NCBI RefSeq assembly: GCF_040373385.1
Contig: NZ_JBDXXH010000013.1
Location: forward strand, 21,059 to 85,058
Length of the DNA: 64,000 bases
Source: Nitratidesulfovibrio sp.
GTDB taxonomy: Bacteria; Desulfobacterota; Desulfovibrionia; Desulfovibrionales; Desulfovibrionaceae
Reading direction: 5' to 3'
Shown one piece after another: positions 15,412 to 64,000 of the stretch. The translations under genes were made by a program, and so were the position numbers. The notes under the pieces were generated by a model. It searched no databases, was not told the origin of the DNA, and saw only the letters and a program-made list of their open reading frames with translations. How positions within the stretch are numbered: the first letter of the stretch is position 1; every line of letters begins with the position of its first letter.

Positions 15412-16164
15412 GTGAACAACGCTTCCACGGCGGGGTCCCCCCTGCCGGAAACTCTTGCGCCAGACACCCTGCCCCGCCACGTGGCCATCATCATGGACGG
15501 CAACGGGCGCTGGGCCACCCAGCGCGGCCTTTCACGCAGCGACGGCCACCGTGCGGGCACCGAGGCAGCCAGGGCCATCGTCACCGAATGCCGCACCCTG
15601 GGCATACCCCACCTGACCATGTACACCTTCTCCAAGGAAAACTGGGGGCGCCCCGGTGCCGAGGTGAAGTTTCTGTTCGAGCTGCTGGTGGACTTCCTGC
15701 GCGAGGAGTTGCCCAACCTCGTCAAGCGCGACATCCGGCTGTCCGTGTTCGGCCAACTGGCCGACCTGCCGTTGGCCGCGCGCAAGGCGCTGGAGCACGC
15801 CATCTCCCGCACCGCCGCCTGCACCACCATGCGCCTGAACCTTGCGCTCAACTACTCCGCCCGCGACGAAATCCTCATGGCCTGCCGCGCCCTGGCCGCC
15901 GAGGGCCTGCCCCCGGATGCCATCACCGAGCAAGCCTTTGCCGCGCGGCTGTGGACCACGGGCCAGCCCGACCCGGACCTGGTCATCCGTACCAGCGGCG
16001 AAGTGCGCATCAGCAATTTTCTGCTCTACCAGAGCGCCTACAGCGAATTCCACTTCACCGACACCCTCTGGCCAGACTTCACCCCAGAGCATTTCCGCGC
16101 CGCCCTGCGCGATTACGCCGGACGGCAACGCCGCTTCGGCAAAACGGAGGCAACCCCCGCGTGA
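15412..16164 (+). CDS. uppS: Undecaprenyl diphosphate synthase (isoprenyl transferase)
   Basis: A 250-residue cis-prenyltransferase making the C55 lipid carrier for peptidoglycan and other glycans. GTG at 15412 is chosen because AGAGG lies six bases upstream; an ATG at 15286 is in frame, but the added part looks non-coding. The catalytic MDGNGRWA motif, GHRAG, the TMYTFSKENWGR block, and the C-terminal RTSGEVRISNFLLYQSAYSE are all present. It overlaps cdsA by four bases. Confidence 0.95.
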   Translation: MNNASTAGSPLPETLAPDTLPRHVAIIMDGNGRWATQRGLSRSDGHRAGTEAARAIVTECRTLGIPHLTMYTFSKENWGRPGAEVKFLFELLVDFLREELPNLVKRDIRLSVFGQLADLPLAARKALEHAISRTAACTTMRLNLALNYSARDEILMACRALAAEGLPPDAITEQAFAARLWTTGQPDPDLVIRTSGEVRISNFLLYQSAYSEFHFTDTLWPDFTPEHFRAALRDYAGRQRRFGKTEATPA

Positions 16165-16967
16165 CCCCGGCATCTCCCCACTTCCAACGCGTCGTCACCG
16201 GCACGGCCCTTGCCGCCCTGCTTACCGTGGGCCTTGCCATGGGCGGCTGGGTGCTGCTGGTCATGGTGGTGGCCGTGGCCAGCCTGGCCCTGCTGGAATT
16301 CTACACCATGTTCTGGCCCGGCAACGCCCGCCTGCCCCTGAAGGCCGCAGGCATGGCCCTTGGTGCCGCCGTACTGGCGGCAGGCCACATGGACCGCCCG
16401 TGGATGGTGCTGGGCTGCATCGCCGCCGCCTTCCTGGTGGGGGCCGTGGGCTTTCTGCTCGCCTGGGGCAACGGCGATGACGACTGCCGCTTCACCGAAG
16501 GCCAGGTGCTGGCGGCGGGCATCCTGTACGTGCCCGTGCTGCTGCTGCCCGCCCTGCACTTCAACCGCTGGGAACAGCTGGTGGTCGTGCTGGCCGCCGT
16601 CATCTCCGACACCGGCGCCTATTTCATCGGCACCTGGTTCGGCAAGGCCCGCATCTGGCCGCGCGTCAGCCCCAAGAAAAGCTGGGTCGGCAGCCTTGGC
16701 GGCCTTGCCCTGTGCGTGCTCGCCTGCACCGGCGTCGGCGTTGCCGCAGGTACCGCCCCGTGGTGGGCCTTTGCCCTGCTGGGCGGCCTGCTGAACGTGG
16801 CCTCGCAACTGGGCGACTTTTTCGAATCCGCCCTCAAGCGCACCCTCGGCGTCAAGGATTCCGGCACCCTGCTGCCCGGCCACGGCGGCCTGCTCGACCG
16901 CATCGACAGCCTGCTCTTTGTCGTGCCCGCCTATGCTGCCCTGGATTCGGTGTTTCCGTTCTTTTAA
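16161..16967 (+). CDS. cdsA: Phosphatidate cytidylyltransferase
   Basis: A 268-residue integral membrane enzyme forming CDP-diacylglycerol from phosphatidate and CTP. It starts with GTG at 16161, overlapping the uppS stop, with GGAGG upstream. Six to eight hydrophobic segments run through the protein. The C-terminal signature KRTLGVKDSGTLLPGHGGLLDRIDS, with the catalytic acidic residues, is complete, and SDTGAYFIG precedes it. The stop codon lies nine bases before the first of three hairpins that fill the following gap. Confidence 0.95.
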   Translation: MTPASPHFQRVVTGTALAALLTVGLAMGGWVLLVMVVAVASLALLEFYTMFWPGNARLPLKAAGMALGAAVLAAGHMDRPWMVLGCIAAAFLVGAVGFLLAWGNGDDDCRFTEGQVLAAGILYVPVLLLPALHFNRWEQLVVVLAAVISDTGAYFIGTWFGKARIWPRVSPKKSWVGSLGGLALCVLACTGVGVAAGTAPWWAFALLGGLLNVASQLGDFFESALKRTLGVKDSGTLLPGHGGLLDRIDSLLFVVPAYAALDSVFPFF

Positions 16968-16975
16968 TGTTTGTC

Positions 16976-17072
16976 GGGGGAGAGGAAGGAACCTTTTGAA
17001 GCGACAGCCGTCGGCGAGTCTTCGAGCCATACGGATGACGACAGCAGAGCTAAAGGTTCCTTCCTCTCCCCC
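16976..17072. other. Long hairpin element 1 (conserved core, 21-bp perfect arms)
   Basis: The left arm 16976-16996 (GGGGGAGAGG...) is perfectly complementary to 17052-17072. Between them lies a ~45-base core (17001-17045) with CAGCCGT, GGCGAGTC, CGAGCC, TACGGATG and CGAC blocks. The same core recurs in the element at 17163-17266 with a different arm sequence. It begins nine bases after the cdsA stop and could end or protect that transcript. Confidence 0.8.
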
Positions 17073-17091
17073 GCACCCCCTCTCCATCCTC

Positions 17092-17143
17092 CCAAACTTT
17101 TCAGTTGAAAAACCGTTGCCGCCATACCCATTGAAAAGTTTGG
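17092..17143. other. Third hairpin between the two long elements
   Basis: CCAAACTTTTCA (17092-17103) and TGAAAAGTTTGG (17132-17143) form a 12-bp perfect stem, with C-rich and G-rich flanks that can extend the pairing imperfectly (17075-17162). Its loop does not contain the core shared by the two flanking elements. Confidence 0.65.
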
Positions 17144-17162
17144 TGGAAAGGGGGATGGGGGT

Positions 17163-17266
17163 CCGGGGGAAGGGGGAAAACCACTTTTGCGGCAGCCGTT
17201 AGGCGAGTCACCGAGCCTTACGGATGGCGACCGCAACGCGAAAAGTGGTTTTCCCCCTTCCCCCGG
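17163..17266. other. Long hairpin element 2 (conserved core, 26-bp perfect arms)
   Basis: The arm 17163-17188 (CCGGGGGAAGGGGGAAAA...) is perfectly complementary to 17241-17266. The core at 17189-17234 aligns with that of element 1 at about five sixths of positions and can fold internally (CCGT.AGGC with GCCTTACGG). It ends 41 bases before the decarboxylase start. Confidence 0.8.
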
Positions 17267-17307
17267 AATAGCTCCAGACACGCCGCAACTCGCATACTTT
17301 ACACCCC

Positions 17308-18801
17308 ATGCAACGACACGAGACACTTGACCTGGAAGATTTCGAAGCTCTGCTGCACCGGGCGGCGACCATGATCGCGGACCGGGTGGAGCGCATCGGC
17401 CCGTGCGCCGAGGGTCCGGTGGTGCACCCGGCCACGTTCGACGAACTGGCGGCCCTGATTCCGTCCGACTGGCCGGAGGCGGGCGCGGGGGCGCACGCGG
17501 TGCTGGACGACGTGGCGCGGTGCATAGAGCCGTACGCCACGCGCATCGGGCATCCGCGCTTTCTGGCATGGATAACCACCAGCCCGGCCCCGGCGGGTAC
17601 GCTGGGCGACATCGTGTGCACGGGGCTGAACCAGGCACCGCTGTCGTTCAAGGGCGGCCCTGCGGCCACGGTGCTGGAGCACGTGGTCATCGGCTGGCTG
17701 GCCCGGCTGTTCGGCCTGCCGGAAGCGGTCGGTGCCGCAGGCGGTGCGGACGGCGCGGGCGGCACCATCGTGTCCGGCGGCACCATGGCCAACCTGATGG
17801 GCCTGACCGTGGCGCGGCACACGCACTTTCCGGAGGCGGCCACCAAGGGGCTTGCGGGCATCGGACGCACCCCGGTGCTGTACGTTTCCGACCAGGGGCA
17901 CATGTCCATCGAGCGTTCCGCGGTGTTGCTGGGCCTGGGCGCGGACAACGTGCGCGCCATCCCGTCCGACGCGGACAACCGCATGGACGTGGCGGCCCTG
18001 CGCACGGCCATCGCCACGGACCGGAAGGCGGGCCTGGCCCCGTTCTGCGTGGTGGCCCAGGCCGGCTCGGTGACCACCGGCGCGGTGGACCCGCTGCCGG
18101 AGATTGCCGACATATGCGCCGCCGAAGGTTTGTGGTTCCATGTTGACGCGGCTTACGGCGGCGCGGCCATGCTGACGGAAGAAGGCCGCGCGCTGCTGGC
18201 TGGCATCGACCGGGCGGACTCCATTTGCGTGGACCCGCACAAATGGTTCTTCATCCCGCTGGAATGCGGGGTGACCCTGTTCCGCAGCAGGGCGCAGCAG
18301 ATTGCCACGTTCCGGGCGCGCGCCTCGTACCTGGGCGAGGAGAATCCGCACGACCTCAAGAACACCACCTTCATCCTCAGCCGCGCCAACCGCGCGCTGA
18401 AGGTGTGGTTTGCCTTCCGCACCTACGGGCGCGAGCGGCTGCGGCGCATCGTGACGCGCAACATGGAACTGGCCCGGCTCTTCCGCGACCTGTGCGCCGC
18501 CTCGCCGGAATGGCGGGTGCTGGCCCCGGTGCAACTGTCCATCGCCTGCGCGCGCTACGTGCCGCAGGGCGATGGCTGGACCGAGGAACAGGTGGACCGC
18601 TTGCAGGTGCGCCTGTTGGAACGGCTGGAGGCATCGGGCGAAGGGTTCCTGACCCCGGCCATGGTGCGCGGTCGGGCCGGGGTGCGCCTGTGCGTGGCCA
18701 ATCACCGCACCTCCGAGGCCGACATCCGCCTGCTGTTCGACCTCATGACCACGCTTGGCCGCGAGCTTGCGGCGCAGGGCTTCCAGACCCCGCAGGTTTA
18801 G
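17308..18801 (+). CDS. PLP-dependent group II decarboxylase (aromatic-amino-acid/glutamate decarboxylase-like)
   Basis: A 497-residue fold-type I PLP enzyme. Conserved blocks: HPRFLAWITTSPAPAG, GGTMANLMGL, HMSIERSA, WFHVDAAYGG (PLP-binding Asp), and VDPHKWFFIPLECG, whose lysine binds PLP. Relatives decarboxylate aromatic amino acids, glutamate, diaminobutyrate or cysteine sulfinate; the substrate cannot be fixed from sequence. It interrupts the usually contiguous cdsA-dxr pair and is preceded by a gap made almost entirely of hairpins. No clear Shine-Dalgarno is seen. dxr starts 37 bases after its stop, so the two may be co-transcribed. Confidence 0.85.
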   Translation: MQRHETLDLEDFEALLHRAATMIADRVERIGPCAEGPVVHPATFDELAALIPSDWPEAGAGAHAVLDDVARCIEPYATRIGHPRFLAWITTSPAPAGTLGDIVCTGLNQAPLSFKGGPAATVLEHVVIGWLARLFGLPEAVGAAGGADGAGGTIVSGGTMANLMGLTVARHTHFPEAATKGLAGIGRTPVLYVSDQGHMSIERSAVLLGLGADNVRAIPSDADNRMDVAALRTAIATDRKAGLAPFCVVAQAGSVTTGAVDPLPEIADICAAEGLWFHVDAAYGGAAMLTEEGRALLAGIDRADSICVDPHKWFFIPLECGVTLFRSRAQQIATFRARASYLGEENPHDLKNTTFILSRANRALKVWFAFRTYGRERLRRIVTRNMELARLFRDLCAASPEWRVLAPVQLSIACARYVPQGDGWTEEQVDRLQVRLLERLEASGEGFLTPAMVRGRAGVRLCVANHRTSEADIRLLFDLMTTLGRELAAQGFQTPQV

Positions 18802-20188: not shown

Positions 20189-21249
20189 GCAGCTTCCTTT
20201 CGGTCCTCCTGGTCCTTGGCGGCCTGATATTCTTCCACGAACTCGGGCATTTCCTGATAGCACGGCTGTTCGGCATCGGCGTGCAGACCTTTTCGCTGGG
20301 CTTTGGCCCGCGCCTGTTCGGCTGGCGCGGCGGCCAGACCGACTACCGGCTGTCGCTGGTGCCGCTGGGCGGCTACGTGTCGCTGGTGGGCGAAAGCGAT
20401 GACGCGGAACTGCCAGAGGGCTTCGAAAAACGCCACAGCTTCACCCTGCGCCCGGCGTGGCAGCGGCTGCTGGTCATTGCCGCCGGGCCGGTATTCAACC
20501 TGCTGCTGGCGTGGTTCATCTACTGGGGGCTGTTCTGGGCGCACGGGCAGTTCCAACTGGCCCCGGAAGTTGGCCGGGTGCAGCCGGAAAGCCCCGCCGC
20601 CATCGCGGGCGTGGCCCCCGGTGACCGCATCCTGTCCATCGGCGGCAAGCCCGTGCAGTGGTGGGACGATGTGGCCGGGTCCATCGTGGCCAGCGAGGGC
20701 CGCGAACTGGCCATCGCCATCGACCGCAACGGCACGGCCCTGACCCTGAACGTCCAGCCCGAGGTGCGCAGCCGCAAGACCATCTTCGGCGAGGACGAGC
20801 ACACCTGGCTCATCGGCATCCAGGCATCCGGCCGCACCGTGTCCCTGCCGCTGGACGGCACCTCGGCCATGAAGGCCGGGCTGGACCAGACCTGGCGAAT
20901 GATCGTCATCACCGGCCAGAGCGTGCAGAAGATCTTCGAGCGGGTGGTGCCGCTGGATTCGGTGGGCGGCCCCATCATGATCGCCCAGATGGTCAGCGAA
21001 CAGTCGCGCCAGGGGCTGGACAGCGTGCTGGCCCTCACCGCGCTGATCAGCATCAACCTGGGGCTGCTGAACCTGCTGCCCATACCCGTGCTGGACGGCG
21101 GGCACATCATCTTCCTAACCATGGAAATGGTCATGCGCCGCCCGGTCAATGCCCGCCTGCGCGAGGTGACCAGCCGCATCGGCCTGGCCTTCCTGCTGGC
21201 CCTGATGCTGCTGGCCACCTACAACGACATCGTGCGGAACCTGCAATGA
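20185..21249 (+). CDS. rseP: RseP-type site-2 (M50) metalloprotease
   Basis: A 354-residue intramembrane protease. The zinc site HELGH is at residues 18-22 within the first membrane helix, and the third ligand region NLLPIPVLDGGH lies near the C-terminus. One PDZ domain spans about residues 120-200 (PAAIAGVAPGDRILSIGGKPV). The family cleaves anti-sigma factors and signal-peptide remnants in the inner membrane. ATG overlaps the dxr stop (ATGA), so coupling is likely. Confidence 0.93.
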   Translation: MSSFLSVLLVLGGLIFFHELGHFLIARLFGIGVQTFSLGFGPRLFGWRGGQTDYRLSLVPLGGYVSLVGESDDAELPEGFEKRHSFTLRPAWQRLLVIAAGPVFNLLLAWFIYWGLFWAHGQFQLAPEVGRVQPESPAAIAGVAPGDRILSIGGKPVQWWDDVAGSIVASEGRELAIAIDRNGTALTLNVQPEVRSRKTIFGEDEHTWLIGIQASGRTVSLPLDGTSAMKAGLDQTWRMIVITGQSVQKIFERVVPLDSVGGPIMIAQMVSEQSRQGLDSVLALTALISINLGLLNLLPIPVLDGGHIIFLTMEMVMRRPVNARLREVTSRIGLAFLLALMLLATYNDIVRNLQ

Positions 21250-22424
21250 CCCAGGTGCCCCCGACGGCGGGGCGAGTCGTGGCCCCCGACCCGACCGCAC
21301 CCACTGGACCCACTGGCCCCATAGGGGCCTGCGCCCAGCACGGCGCGGGGGGCATCACCCTGGCCCTGAACGCGGCGGAATCGCGCGTGCAGGCCGCCGC
21401 CCTGCGCGACGGCGAAGCCCTGTTCGCGCAGGAATGGCACGTACCCTCGCAGGGTACGGAACTGCTGGCCCCGGCCCTGGCCGACGCCTTCGCGCGGATG
21501 CGCCTTTCGCTGAGTGACGTGCGGCGCATCGCCTGCGTGCAGGGCCCCGGCAGCTTCACCGGGCTGCGCCTGGTGCTGTCCACGGCGGCGGGCATGGCCC
21601 GCGCGCTGGGGGCGCGGCAGGCCGGGTTATCGTACACGCAACTGCTGGCCTGCGGTCCGCTGCTGCCGCGCGGGGCGGTGCTGTGGGTGCTGACCCACGC
21701 CCGGCGCGGGCTGGTGCACATGCAGGCCTTCCGCATGCCCGGCGAGACGCTGGACGTCGCCAGCACCGGCGCCCCCGACGTCGCCCCGGACGCTGCTCCG
21801 GACACTGCCGCCGCCACGCCCCCCCGCCTGCCCGAAGCCCTGACCCCGGTGGAGGCGGCAACGCTTGACGCCGCCGTGGCCCGAATAGTGGCGCTTCAGC
21901 CAAACATAGAACACGCCGAGGGCAAATCGGCGGCGGCCGGATGCGATACTGACGCCGCCGTGGCCCGAATAGTGGCGCTTCAGCCAAACATAGAACACGC
22001 CGAGGGCAAATCGGCGGCGGCCGGATGCGATACTGACGCCGCCGTGGCCCGAATAGTGGCGCTTCAGCCAAACACAGAACACGCCGAGGGCAAATCGGCG
22101 GCGGCCCGATTCGATGCGGCCCCCGCCGTCTACCTGATGGGCAGCGGGGTCACCCGCAACCGCGCCGTCCTTGCCCCGGCATTGGCCGCGCTGTTGCCGG
22201 GGGCCTGCTTTCTGCCCAGCCGGTTCGACCACCCCGCCCCCGCCCTGCTGCTGCCCCTGGCCGCCACGGCCACCTACGGCCCCGATGACGTGCAACCGCT
22301 GTACGTGCGCCCCTGCGACGCGGAAGAAAACCTGCCCGCAATGGCCGCCGCGCGCGGCATGGACCCGGAACAGGCCCGGCTGGCACTGGCCCGGCTGACA
22401 ACAGCCCCGCTCGCCGACGCATAA
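21246..22424 (+). CDS. tsaB: tRNA threonylcarbamoyladenosine biosynthesis protein TsaB, with in-frame repeat insertion
   Basis: A 392-residue ASKHA-fold protein that works with TsaD and TsaE to make t6A37 in tRNA. The core is clear: ITLALNAAESRVQAA, RIACVQGPGSFTGLRLVLSTAAGMARALG, and a C-terminal YVRPCDAEENLP. TsaB is normally ~220-240 residues. The excess comes from a Pro/Thr-rich N-terminus, an Ala/Pro linker (res. ~165-200) and three tandem 28-residue repeats (res. ~208-291; unit begins DAAVARIVALQPNIEHAEG) encoded by an 84-bp direct repeat. Repeat codons (CGA, ATA, CTT, CCA, ACT) differ from the surrounding strongly GC3-biased gene. ATG overlaps the rseP stop. Confidence 0.85.
   Translation: MTQVPPTAGRVVAPDPTAPTGPTGPIGACAQHGAGGITLALNAAESRVQAAALRDGEALFAQEWHVPSQGTELLAPALADAFARMRLSLSDVRRIACVQGPGSFTGLRLVLSTAAGMARALGARQAGLSYTQLLACGPLLPRGAVLWVLTHARRGLVHMQAFRMPGETLDVASTGAPDVAPDAAPDTAAATPPRLPEALTPVEAATLDAAVARIVALQPNIEHAEGKSAAAGCDTDAAVARIVALQPNIEHAEGKSAAAGCDTDAAVARIVALQPNTEHAEGKSAAARFDAAPAVYLMGSGVTRNRAVLAPALAALLPGACFLPSRFDHPAPALLLPLAATATYGPDDVQPLYVRPCDAEENLPAMAAARGMDPEQARLALARLTTAPLADA
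21867..22118 (+). repeat. 84-bp direct repeat (x3) inside tsaB
   Basis: Units begin at 21867, 21951 and 22035. The first two appear identical; the third differs at one internal base (ACATAG to ACACAG) and diverges at its last ~12 bases. The period is a multiple of three, so the reading frame is kept. Confidence 0.92.
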
Positions 22425-52033: not shown

Positions 52034-52362
52034 TTCTACGAAGACAGCCGTGCGCGGTTGGGGATACCCGGTTTCGTTATGTCTCCGACGGGGACGAAGA
52101 GGCTGTGCGCGGTTGCATCCGGATTCTACGAAGACAGTCGAGCTCTATTGACCACGCCCGATCTCGTTATGTCTCCGACGGGGACGAAGAGGCTGTGCGC
52201 GGTTGCATCCGGATTCTACGAAGACAGTCGAGCTCTATTGACCACGCCCGATCTCGTTATGTCTCCGACGGGGACGAAGAGGCTGTGCGCGGTTGCATCC
52301 GGATTCTACGAAGACAGTCGAGCTCTATTGACCACGCTCGATCTCGTTATGTCTCCGACGGG
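52034..52362 (+). repeat. Tandem array of the 59-bp unit (4 copies, 90-bp period)
   Basis: Units TTCTACGAAG...CTCCGACGGG occupy 52034-52092, 52124-52182, 52214-52272 and 52304-52362, each exactly 59 bp, separated by a 31-bp spacer that is identical between the last three. The first unit is more divergent in its middle (GTGCGCGGTTGGGGA). The last unit is also the end of the composite element that follows. Confidence 0.92.
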
Positions 52363-63712: not shown

Positions 63713-64000
63713 ACCTACGAAGACACGCCAGCCCGGTAGACCACGCCCGATTTCGTTATGCCTCCGGCGGGTTGGATTTAGGTTCAGCGCTGCTGCACCC
63801 GGCTTCTACGAAGACAGTCCAGCCCTGTTGAACACGCTCGATTTCGTTATGTCTCCGACGGGTTGGGTTTAGGTTCAGCGCTGCTGCACCCGGCTTCTAC
63901 GAAGACAGTACAGCCCTGTTGAACACGCTCGATTTCGTTATGTCTCCGACGGGTTGGGTTTAGGTTCAGCGCTGCTGCACCCGGCTTCTACGAAGACAGT
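63713..64000 (+). repeat. Second tandem array of the 59-bp unit (3 full copies + 1 cut by the window end)
   Basis: Units at 63713-63771, 63804-63862, 63895-63953 and from 63986 on, each 59 bp, with period 91. Spacers (TTGGGTTTAGGTTCAGCGCT...) differ from those of the array at 52.0 kb but share a TGCGC/CGCTG...TGCAnCC stretch before each unit. The first unit is the most divergent. No gene is seen after ptsI. Confidence 0.92.

Follow-up and report, generated by a model that had tools for sequence, protein, structure and literature searches.

A small structured repeat found at the tips of hairpins that also occur without it in genomes of the Desulfovibrionaceae

Related genomes carry the same long hairpins with and without a structured unit of about 50 nt at the apex: the unit has been inserted at the apices of hairpins that exist without it, in both orientations and with nesting. 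We think it probable that this unit, the core, is a structured, non-autonomous repeat whose insertion sites are the apices of hairpins already in place. The analysis starts from a window (the whole 64-kb stretch of DNA that was analysed) of one genome, G000, and extends to seven congeners, G001 to G007, which together with G000 make up a genus set of eight genomes.

RESULTS

Two hairpins behind cdsA have a common core and unlike arms

The spacer between cdsA and a decarboxylase gene holds two long hairpins (Table 1), which an earlier note on this DNA had described as having the same core and unrelated, perfectly self-complementary arms. Both features are real, with arms of 22 bp around a 55-nt spacer in hairpin 1 and of 27 bp around a 52-nt spacer in hairpin 2 (100% complementary in each), rather than the 21 and 26 bp first given, and the third hairpin that was said to fill the space between them is also present, in imperfect form. 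The arms of the two hairpins are unlike in sequence and alike in style, with a G-rich 5' arm, a C/T-rich 3' arm and a run of T at the apex. Over a length of 45 nt, the two cores agree at 80% of positions; the consensus pattern of the core is present at two places in the window, and 100 shuffles gave no match to it. In core copy 1, the pairing consists of P1 (CGAC/GACG), an A-T pair and a G.A step, P2 (CCGT/ACGG) and P3 (GGC/GCC), with the loop GAGTCTTCGA and the 3' tail ACAGCAGAGCT.

Table 1. Coordinates of the features of the cdsA-decarboxylase spacer and its flanking genes in the window
Feature	Position	Strand	Remark
cdsA (phosphatidate cytidylyltransferase, PF01148)	16161..16967	+	
Hairpin 1, left arm, 22 nt	16975..16996	+	
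Core copy 1 (structured unit), 51 nt	17001..17051	+	Orthologous hairpin in G004 and G006 without core
Hairpin 1, right arm	17052..17073	+	
Third hairpin, imperfect, no core; C-rich 5' arm, G-rich 3' arm	~17075..17162	.	
Hairpin 2, left arm, 27 nt	17162..17188	+	
Core copy 2 (structured unit), 52 nt	17189..17240	+	Missing in G006; opposite orientation in G004
Hairpin 2, right arm	17241..17267	+	
PLP-dependent decarboxylase (PF00282)	17308..18801	+	3' of the hairpins

Folded as RNA and compared with shuffles, hairpins 1 and 2 have z values of -6.9 and -8.3, respectively, most of which is accounted for by the arms; the cores folded without their arms have weaker values (-0.4 and -2.6). The third hairpin has a z of -3.9 on the plus strand and -2.4 on the minus strand. 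Hairpin 1 begins 7 nt after the cdsA stop codon. Neither hairpin 1 nor hairpin 2 is followed by a U-tract, and thus these hairpins are not canonical intrinsic terminators; a scan for intrinsic terminators, limited to loops of 3–8 nt, found none. Rfam families gave no match at gathering score in the 64-kb window, and the 56 sub-threshold matches were all to microRNA families, with two weak matches to sRNAs in other loci.

The decarboxylase gene is flanked by cdsA and dxr (PF02670), and its 5' part lies downstream of cdsA in seven of the eight genus genomes. In G001, the end of cdsA coincides with a contig end and the start of the decarboxylase gene stands behind another gene, with a core-less hairpin of the same perfect style between the two (L091). 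Elsewhere in the window there are three tandem repeats: an 84-bp unit in 3.1 copies (96%; 21866–22129), which lies within an open frame at 20658–22424 and encodes 28-aa repeats, and two arrays at 52067–52362 (90 bp, 98%) and 63715–64000 (91 bp, 94%) with partly common unit sequence.

The same hairpins occur filled and empty in congeners

The genus genomes are 93–96% identical in the flanks of the hairpins. Both hairpins of the cdsA spacer are filled in G000 and G005, with a single arm mismatch in hairpin 2 of G005. In G004, hairpin 1 is empty, with identical arms and a 4-nt loop, and hairpin 2 is filled by a unit in the other orientation; in G006, neither hairpin holds the core: the loops measure 4 and 2 nt, and a single substitution leaves a mismatch in the arms of hairpin 1. 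Thus, the three core-less hairpins of this spacer (both in G006 and the first in G004) have loops of 2–4 nt and arms that differ by at most one substitution. G003 has the core-less hairpins and the middle hairpin as an inverted three-hairpin cassette (L092). The spacer of G007, part of which was masked, has a core-less hairpin on its 3' side, and the three-hairpin cassette behind cdsA is probably inverted whole in this genome as it is in G003. In G002, the spacer is 81 bases long and the hairpins are missing.

These alleles bear directly on how the arms came about. The earlier note had raised, as one of two options beside strong selection for pairing, the idea that the arms are made by copying, for example by fold-back synthesis. 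At the cdsA locus, copying of the arms along with the core finds no support: core-less alleles bear the same arms, and the simplest order is therefore that the hairpin came first and the core entered its tip afterwards. The arms are specific to their locus among the long-hairpin copies, a point that the note had named as a check; they are not always perfect, given the one mismatch each in hairpin 1 of G006 and hairpin 2 of G005.

Across the eight genus genomes, we found both filled and empty alleles at nine hairpin sites in four spacers. Counting only the genomes that have the same hairpin, the numbers of filled and empty alleles are 2/2 at A-hp1 and 3/1 at A-hp2 in spacer A (the cdsA spacer), 3/2 at B-hpL and 2/2 at B-hpR in spacer B, 1/2 at C-hpR, 1/2 at C-alt and 1/1 at C-GC in spacer C, and 1/5 at D-hpR and 4/2 at D-GC in spacer D. 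Five of the nine sites had been picked for their filled state in G000; the remaining four came to light in other genomes, within the same spacers, without having been looked for. A covariance model of the unit, run over the 29 loci of the four spacers (with part of spacer A of G007 masked), had 18 matches, all of them at the nine sites. At four sites, a single genome has the filled allele, from which we infer that several of the differences are gains. Although several of the congeners are draft assemblies, G004, with 10 contigs, and G007, with 1 contig, also have empty alleles.

The insertion point lies no more than about 4 nt from the dyad axis at each site, and the empty allele has the same inner arms, based on the inner 26–36 nt of each empty hairpin (at B-hpR of G004 the left boundary is blurred by an arm substitution, and in the last D-GC row the axis is shifted by a short anchor). 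Filled and empty alleles differ in length by 49–57 nt, by 102 nt in the case of a tandem double insertion and by 125 nt in the case of a nested one. The tandem case is the D-GC site of G004 (L164), where two units stand directly in tandem in one hairpin loop. Three comparisons are clean (C-alt, C-GC, and G004 versus G000 at D-GC), and these show neither a target-site duplication nor the loss of any base; in the other comparisons, 1–8 nt of the empty loop were replaced, mostly 1–4, with 7–8 in two D-GC rows. With genomes that have one common unit counted once, there are 11 site-events, six in plus orientation and five in minus. Spacer A (16968–17307) is identical between G000 and G005 at 335 of 340 positions, while the flanking genes are ∼93% identical, and thus an exchange of entire spacers is likely as well, and such recombination may have carried filled alleles between species.

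The core is a dispersed repeat of one bacterial family

The recurrence of the core in Desulfovibrionaceae, which the earlier note had put forward as a check, is extensive: G000 has 59 core matches with at most three mismatches, compared to three for the reversed pattern, and the seven congeners have 48–111, compared to 2–5. With a core that is genome-wide and arms that are locus-specific, the outcome that the note had set against its own reading, a core absent elsewhere and arms decayed in relatives, is not what these genomes contain. At E values up to 0.001, the covariance model had matches in 37 of 120 genomes from the order, and all 37 belong to the family of the window; the number of matches per genome reaches at least about 49, and at least 20 other sampled genomes of the family had none. 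No clear core matches were found outside this one family (Desulfovibrio and relatives), and the model matches in five out-of-family genomes, one in each, were about equal to the control and were taken as chance. Similarly, an exact pattern was found in 28 stretches among genomes of named species, all under the names Desulfovibrio, Nitratidesulfovibrio, Pseudodesulfovibrio or 'Deltaproteobacteria bacterium', and another core pattern was found in three stretches in IMG/VR.

The repeat also occurs in longer arrangements. A predicted phage contig from IMG/VR (L033, 2970–3586) has five tandem 148-bp copies with one unit in each, and L031 has one similar copy. In another genus of the family (L234–L242 of G043 and L243–L252 of G129), the unit lies within longer composite repeats that are present in several near-identical copies, which suggests recent spread.

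The fold of the unit is maintained through compensatory changes

The unit is 50–52 nt long, or 56–57 nt with a longer loop. Its fold consists of P1 (four pairs, variable), an A-U pair, a G.A step, P2 (CCGU/ACGG), a small internal loop and P3 (three pairs). The loop that follows has the form GA-G..C-GA, and the 3' tail is of the GACMGCARMGC type. This structure is maintained through compensatory changes. In an alignment of 63 of the 79 distinct type-B units, with unit ends set by us, 96.0% of the cells are paired, compared to 85.7% when shuffled and 26–38% in slid controls, although pairing in P2 and P3 is inflated because it was required when the units were collected. P1, which was not selected for pairing, is paired in 86.9%. 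Across the same 63 units, there are 84 two-sided cells, compared to 24.1 when shuffled, and no excess of further pair types (18 versus 17.0). The variants of P3 include GGC/GCC, TGC/GCA, AGC/GCT, GAC/GTC and GGT/ACC; in 189 hits of a pattern blind to pairing (from G000, G006 and G003), G-U exceeds A-C in P3 by only 12 to 6, and in G003 alone the ratio is 2 to 5. The wider collection of 131 unit rows includes some chance matches to coding DNA. The subtype of the unit seems to be linked to the class of target, such that T-run apices have mostly GCGGCAG..GACCGC and GC hairpins have ACGGCAG..GATCGC.

Units build composites on a 111-nt base element

When composites are aligned, they resolve into a base element of 110–111 nt that is a hairpin in its own right and offers three insertion points, one of which is the dyad of the base element (GAGTAT^ACTC) and takes a 51-nt unit. 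The lengths of the composites cluster at 110–111 nt (7 of 52 copies), 161–163, 179–181, 211–218, 231–232 and 277–289 nt, with a single one of 337 nt. Orthologous loci differ in their modules: at L053, the base element stands alone in G007 and is joined by a unit in G000; at L011, G001 is one module short of G000; and at L015, the module sets differ among G000/G004, G005 and G002. The base element is also present at L003, L010, L013, L132 and other loci.

The inverted repeats that frame the base element are in many cases of one common type and in others particular to the locus, and in 33 of 52 cases they are 7 bp or longer, compared to 5.5% for mispaired flanks. Loci without the element also lack the framing arms (L010 in G004 and G005; L011 in G002, G005 and G007; L013 in G007), and thus these arms may have arisen together with the element. 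At L013 in G004, the left outer arm alone is kept and the element is missing. Among eight loci (one of which, L037, had no usable left flank), none was found with an empty allele in which both outer arms persist.

Hairpin tips hold the unit but are not its only home

To gauge how exclusive the association is, we refer to a survey of hairpins with perfect arms of ≥16 nt and a spacer limit of 160 in 464 kb of sequence, made up of 400 kb from two contig starts and the window. Among its 12 unmasked hairpins, all four with a spacer >10 nt hold the unit (two of two outside the window), and the remaining eight have spacers of ≤10 nt; thus, in this 464-kb sample only the unit occupies such tips. The reverse does not hold. 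When 60 rows from G000 were sorted automatically and then by hand (which moved 12 rows out of 'other' and one row each out of 'type A' and 'type B'), 42 lay in base-element composites, 10 at hairpin apices (two of them with arms that are short and imperfect by eye), three at a G-rich junction between hairpins and four nested within other units, and one was a chance match in a coding gene; hairpin tips are therefore not the sole home of the unit. In Desulfovibrio sp. OttesenSCG-928-I05, apparent short arms of 8, 7 and 9 bp stand beside the unit in L205, L219 and L220.

Candidate movers

The proposal of a mobile unit is weakened by the fact that no autonomous partner was found for it. The Y1_Tnp domain (PF01797; RAYT, IS200/IS605-type) had no match in G000, G002, G003, G005, G006, G007 or the unit-bearing genome G011, and had matches in G001 and G004 (frames of 74–75 aa, that of G004 with a stop) and in the unit-bearing genomes G009 and G015. 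PF02371 (IS110) was not matched at E 0.001 in any of the eight genus genomes and is present in the unit-bearing genomes G011 and G015; PF00078 (RVT_1, reverse transcriptase) had no match in G000 and five of the seven congeners and is present in G006, G007 and G011. Given these matches in other unit-bearing genomes, such an enzyme elsewhere in the family is possible. The consensus of the 63-unit alignment has neither a GTAG nor a CGTC tetranucleotide at either end.

Other element types were considered. The unit does not fit a MITE, since there is no target-site duplication at C-alt, C-GC or D-GC of G004 and the ends are not inverted repeats apart from P1. A resemblance to domain V of group II introns was dropped, and one to attC boxes was not adopted as a reading. 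The ends of attC sites are RYYYAAC and GTTRRRY, and these sites work with an IntI integrase; GTTAGGC occurs in the units, but the alignment has it in reversed order, on either side of a loop of 10 nt.

DISCUSSION

The reading that we favour has a mobile unit of about 50–57 nt, folding into an interrupted hairpin of its own, that would insert into the apex of long hairpins already standing downstream of genes. The perfect, locus-specific arms would then simply be hairpins that were present before insertion. We infer that recognition of the target depends mainly on the tip of a hairpin, a loop in single-stranded or cruciform DNA, rather than on sequence, given that the apices in use are unrelated in sequence: those of T-run hairpins, of GC hairpins, of the base element (GAGTATACTC) and of the unit's own kin. 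The apparent association between subtype and target class need not arise with an inserter that is directed purely by structure. A wider version of this proposal, which we hold tentatively and at somewhat less than an even chance, is that of a shape-directed, self-nesting family of mobile hairpins whose machinery would recognise any extruded hairpin tip and place there a structured unit of 50–57 nt.

The strongest rival is template switching during replication, in which a polymerase stalled at an apex (..TTTT / AAAA..) would copy the loop of a hairpin with a like apex and then return; this process would be free of transposase, and microhomology would spread units among hairpins of one class. 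We regard it as rather unlikely, and yet as a serious rival, since the subtype seems tied to the hairpin class and the loops are often replaced. Indeed, insertions are often flush with a short common apex, with the loop replaced, the subtype of the unit seems to track the hairpin class, and the tandem doubled unit of G004 looks like slippage. On the other hand, C-alt and C-GC keep all bases of the empty loop, sites that have no such apex (the base element and kin units) were entered, and copying alone leaves the covarying structure of the unit unexplained.

That same covarying structure would also fit a functional RNA module, a unit that a protein would bind at the apex of a 3'-end hairpin and that would be under selection for expression of the upstream gene, and the four hairpin spacers, judged by their sequence, seem to be placed after stop codons. 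This explanation is very improbable, however, given that both orientations occur at the same hairpin (A-hp2; 6:5 overall), that presence is sporadic among genomes with flanks that are 93–96% identical, and that the unit spreads via composites and nesting. No likelier is a REP-type repeat moved at present or recently by a RAYT (a Y1 transposase of the IS200/IS605 type): the size, the palindromic nature and the absence of a visible target duplication fit such a repeat, as do the Y1_Tnp matches in G001, G004, G009 and G015, but G000, five congeners and the unit-bearing G011 have no Y1_Tnp match, and the alignment has no conserved GTAG end. A current RAYT in G000 is unlikely. Least credible of all is the earlier idea that fold-back copying generated the arms together with the core, which can point to the often locus-differing inverted repeats that frame base-element composites and to the lack of framing repeats at loci without the base element, but which is contradicted by empty alleles that are already armed at all nine hairpin sites and by L013 of G004, which retains a left outer arm without the element, like a decayed copy.

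Group IIC introns insert at terminator-like stem-loops; the unit is far too small to be one, and G000 has no RVT_1 match. Closest among known systems are the palindromic repeats of green-algal organelles, together with the double-hairpin elements of Allomyces mitochondria, and the GC clusters of yeast mitochondria. The short palindromic repeats of Volvox carteri organelles are described as undergoing common nested insertions that give larger composites (PMC2670323), and like them the unit is about 50 nt, folds as a hairpin, is noncoding and is nested. As far as that account goes, the Volvox repeats differ in being organellar, in having short loops and in showing no apices of unrelated host hairpins that are filled in some alleles and empty in others (PMC2670323). 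In yeast mitochondria, GC42 is presented as a 42-nt structured mobile repeat that is polymorphic among strains, whose units merge and for which there is no settled mover (PMC4478555). The target-site nucleotides AG are reported for GC42 (PMC4478555), whereas our unit has no duplication in clean comparisons and targets hairpin tips.

The unit resembles bacterial REPs in being a small, dispersed, palindromic repeat, and REPs tagged with CGTC are reported to lack a dedicated transposase as well (PMC3733652); the main text of that paper makes no mention of Desulfovibrio. Unlike REPs, the unit has no GTAG or CGTC end and no RAYT match in G000, and it has an interrupted stem, a conserved GA..GA loop, a 3' tail and insertion at apices. 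REP palindromes are themselves targets of IS1397, IS621, ISKpn1 and ISPpu9/10, with a fixed insertion point for ISPsy8 and ISPpu9/10 (PMC1525189). Those insertion sequences bear genes and use particular REPs, whereas the unit is a noncoding 50-nt element that uses palindromes of unrelated sequence. A literature search of open-licence full texts yielded no description of the core repeat among the best matches listed and, there and in the passages cited above, no bacterial description of apex targeting by a small palindromic repeat. We rate the unit as a small non-autonomous palindromic repeat that its targeting behaviour seems to set apart.

If insertion into hairpin tips is the correct reading, perfect but unrelated arms are explained without copying. 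Each insertion would produce a longer hairpin with new loops, such that composites would grow as hairpin within hairpin, and the 3'-end hairpins of the host would serve as safe landing sites. If shape guides the insertion, a short defined element with natural pairs of empty and filled sites would help in finding the enzyme that acts on hairpin tips, or the process at the replication fork. The insertion of hairpins into hairpin loops would thus be a concrete answer to the question of how complex palindromic repeats grow.
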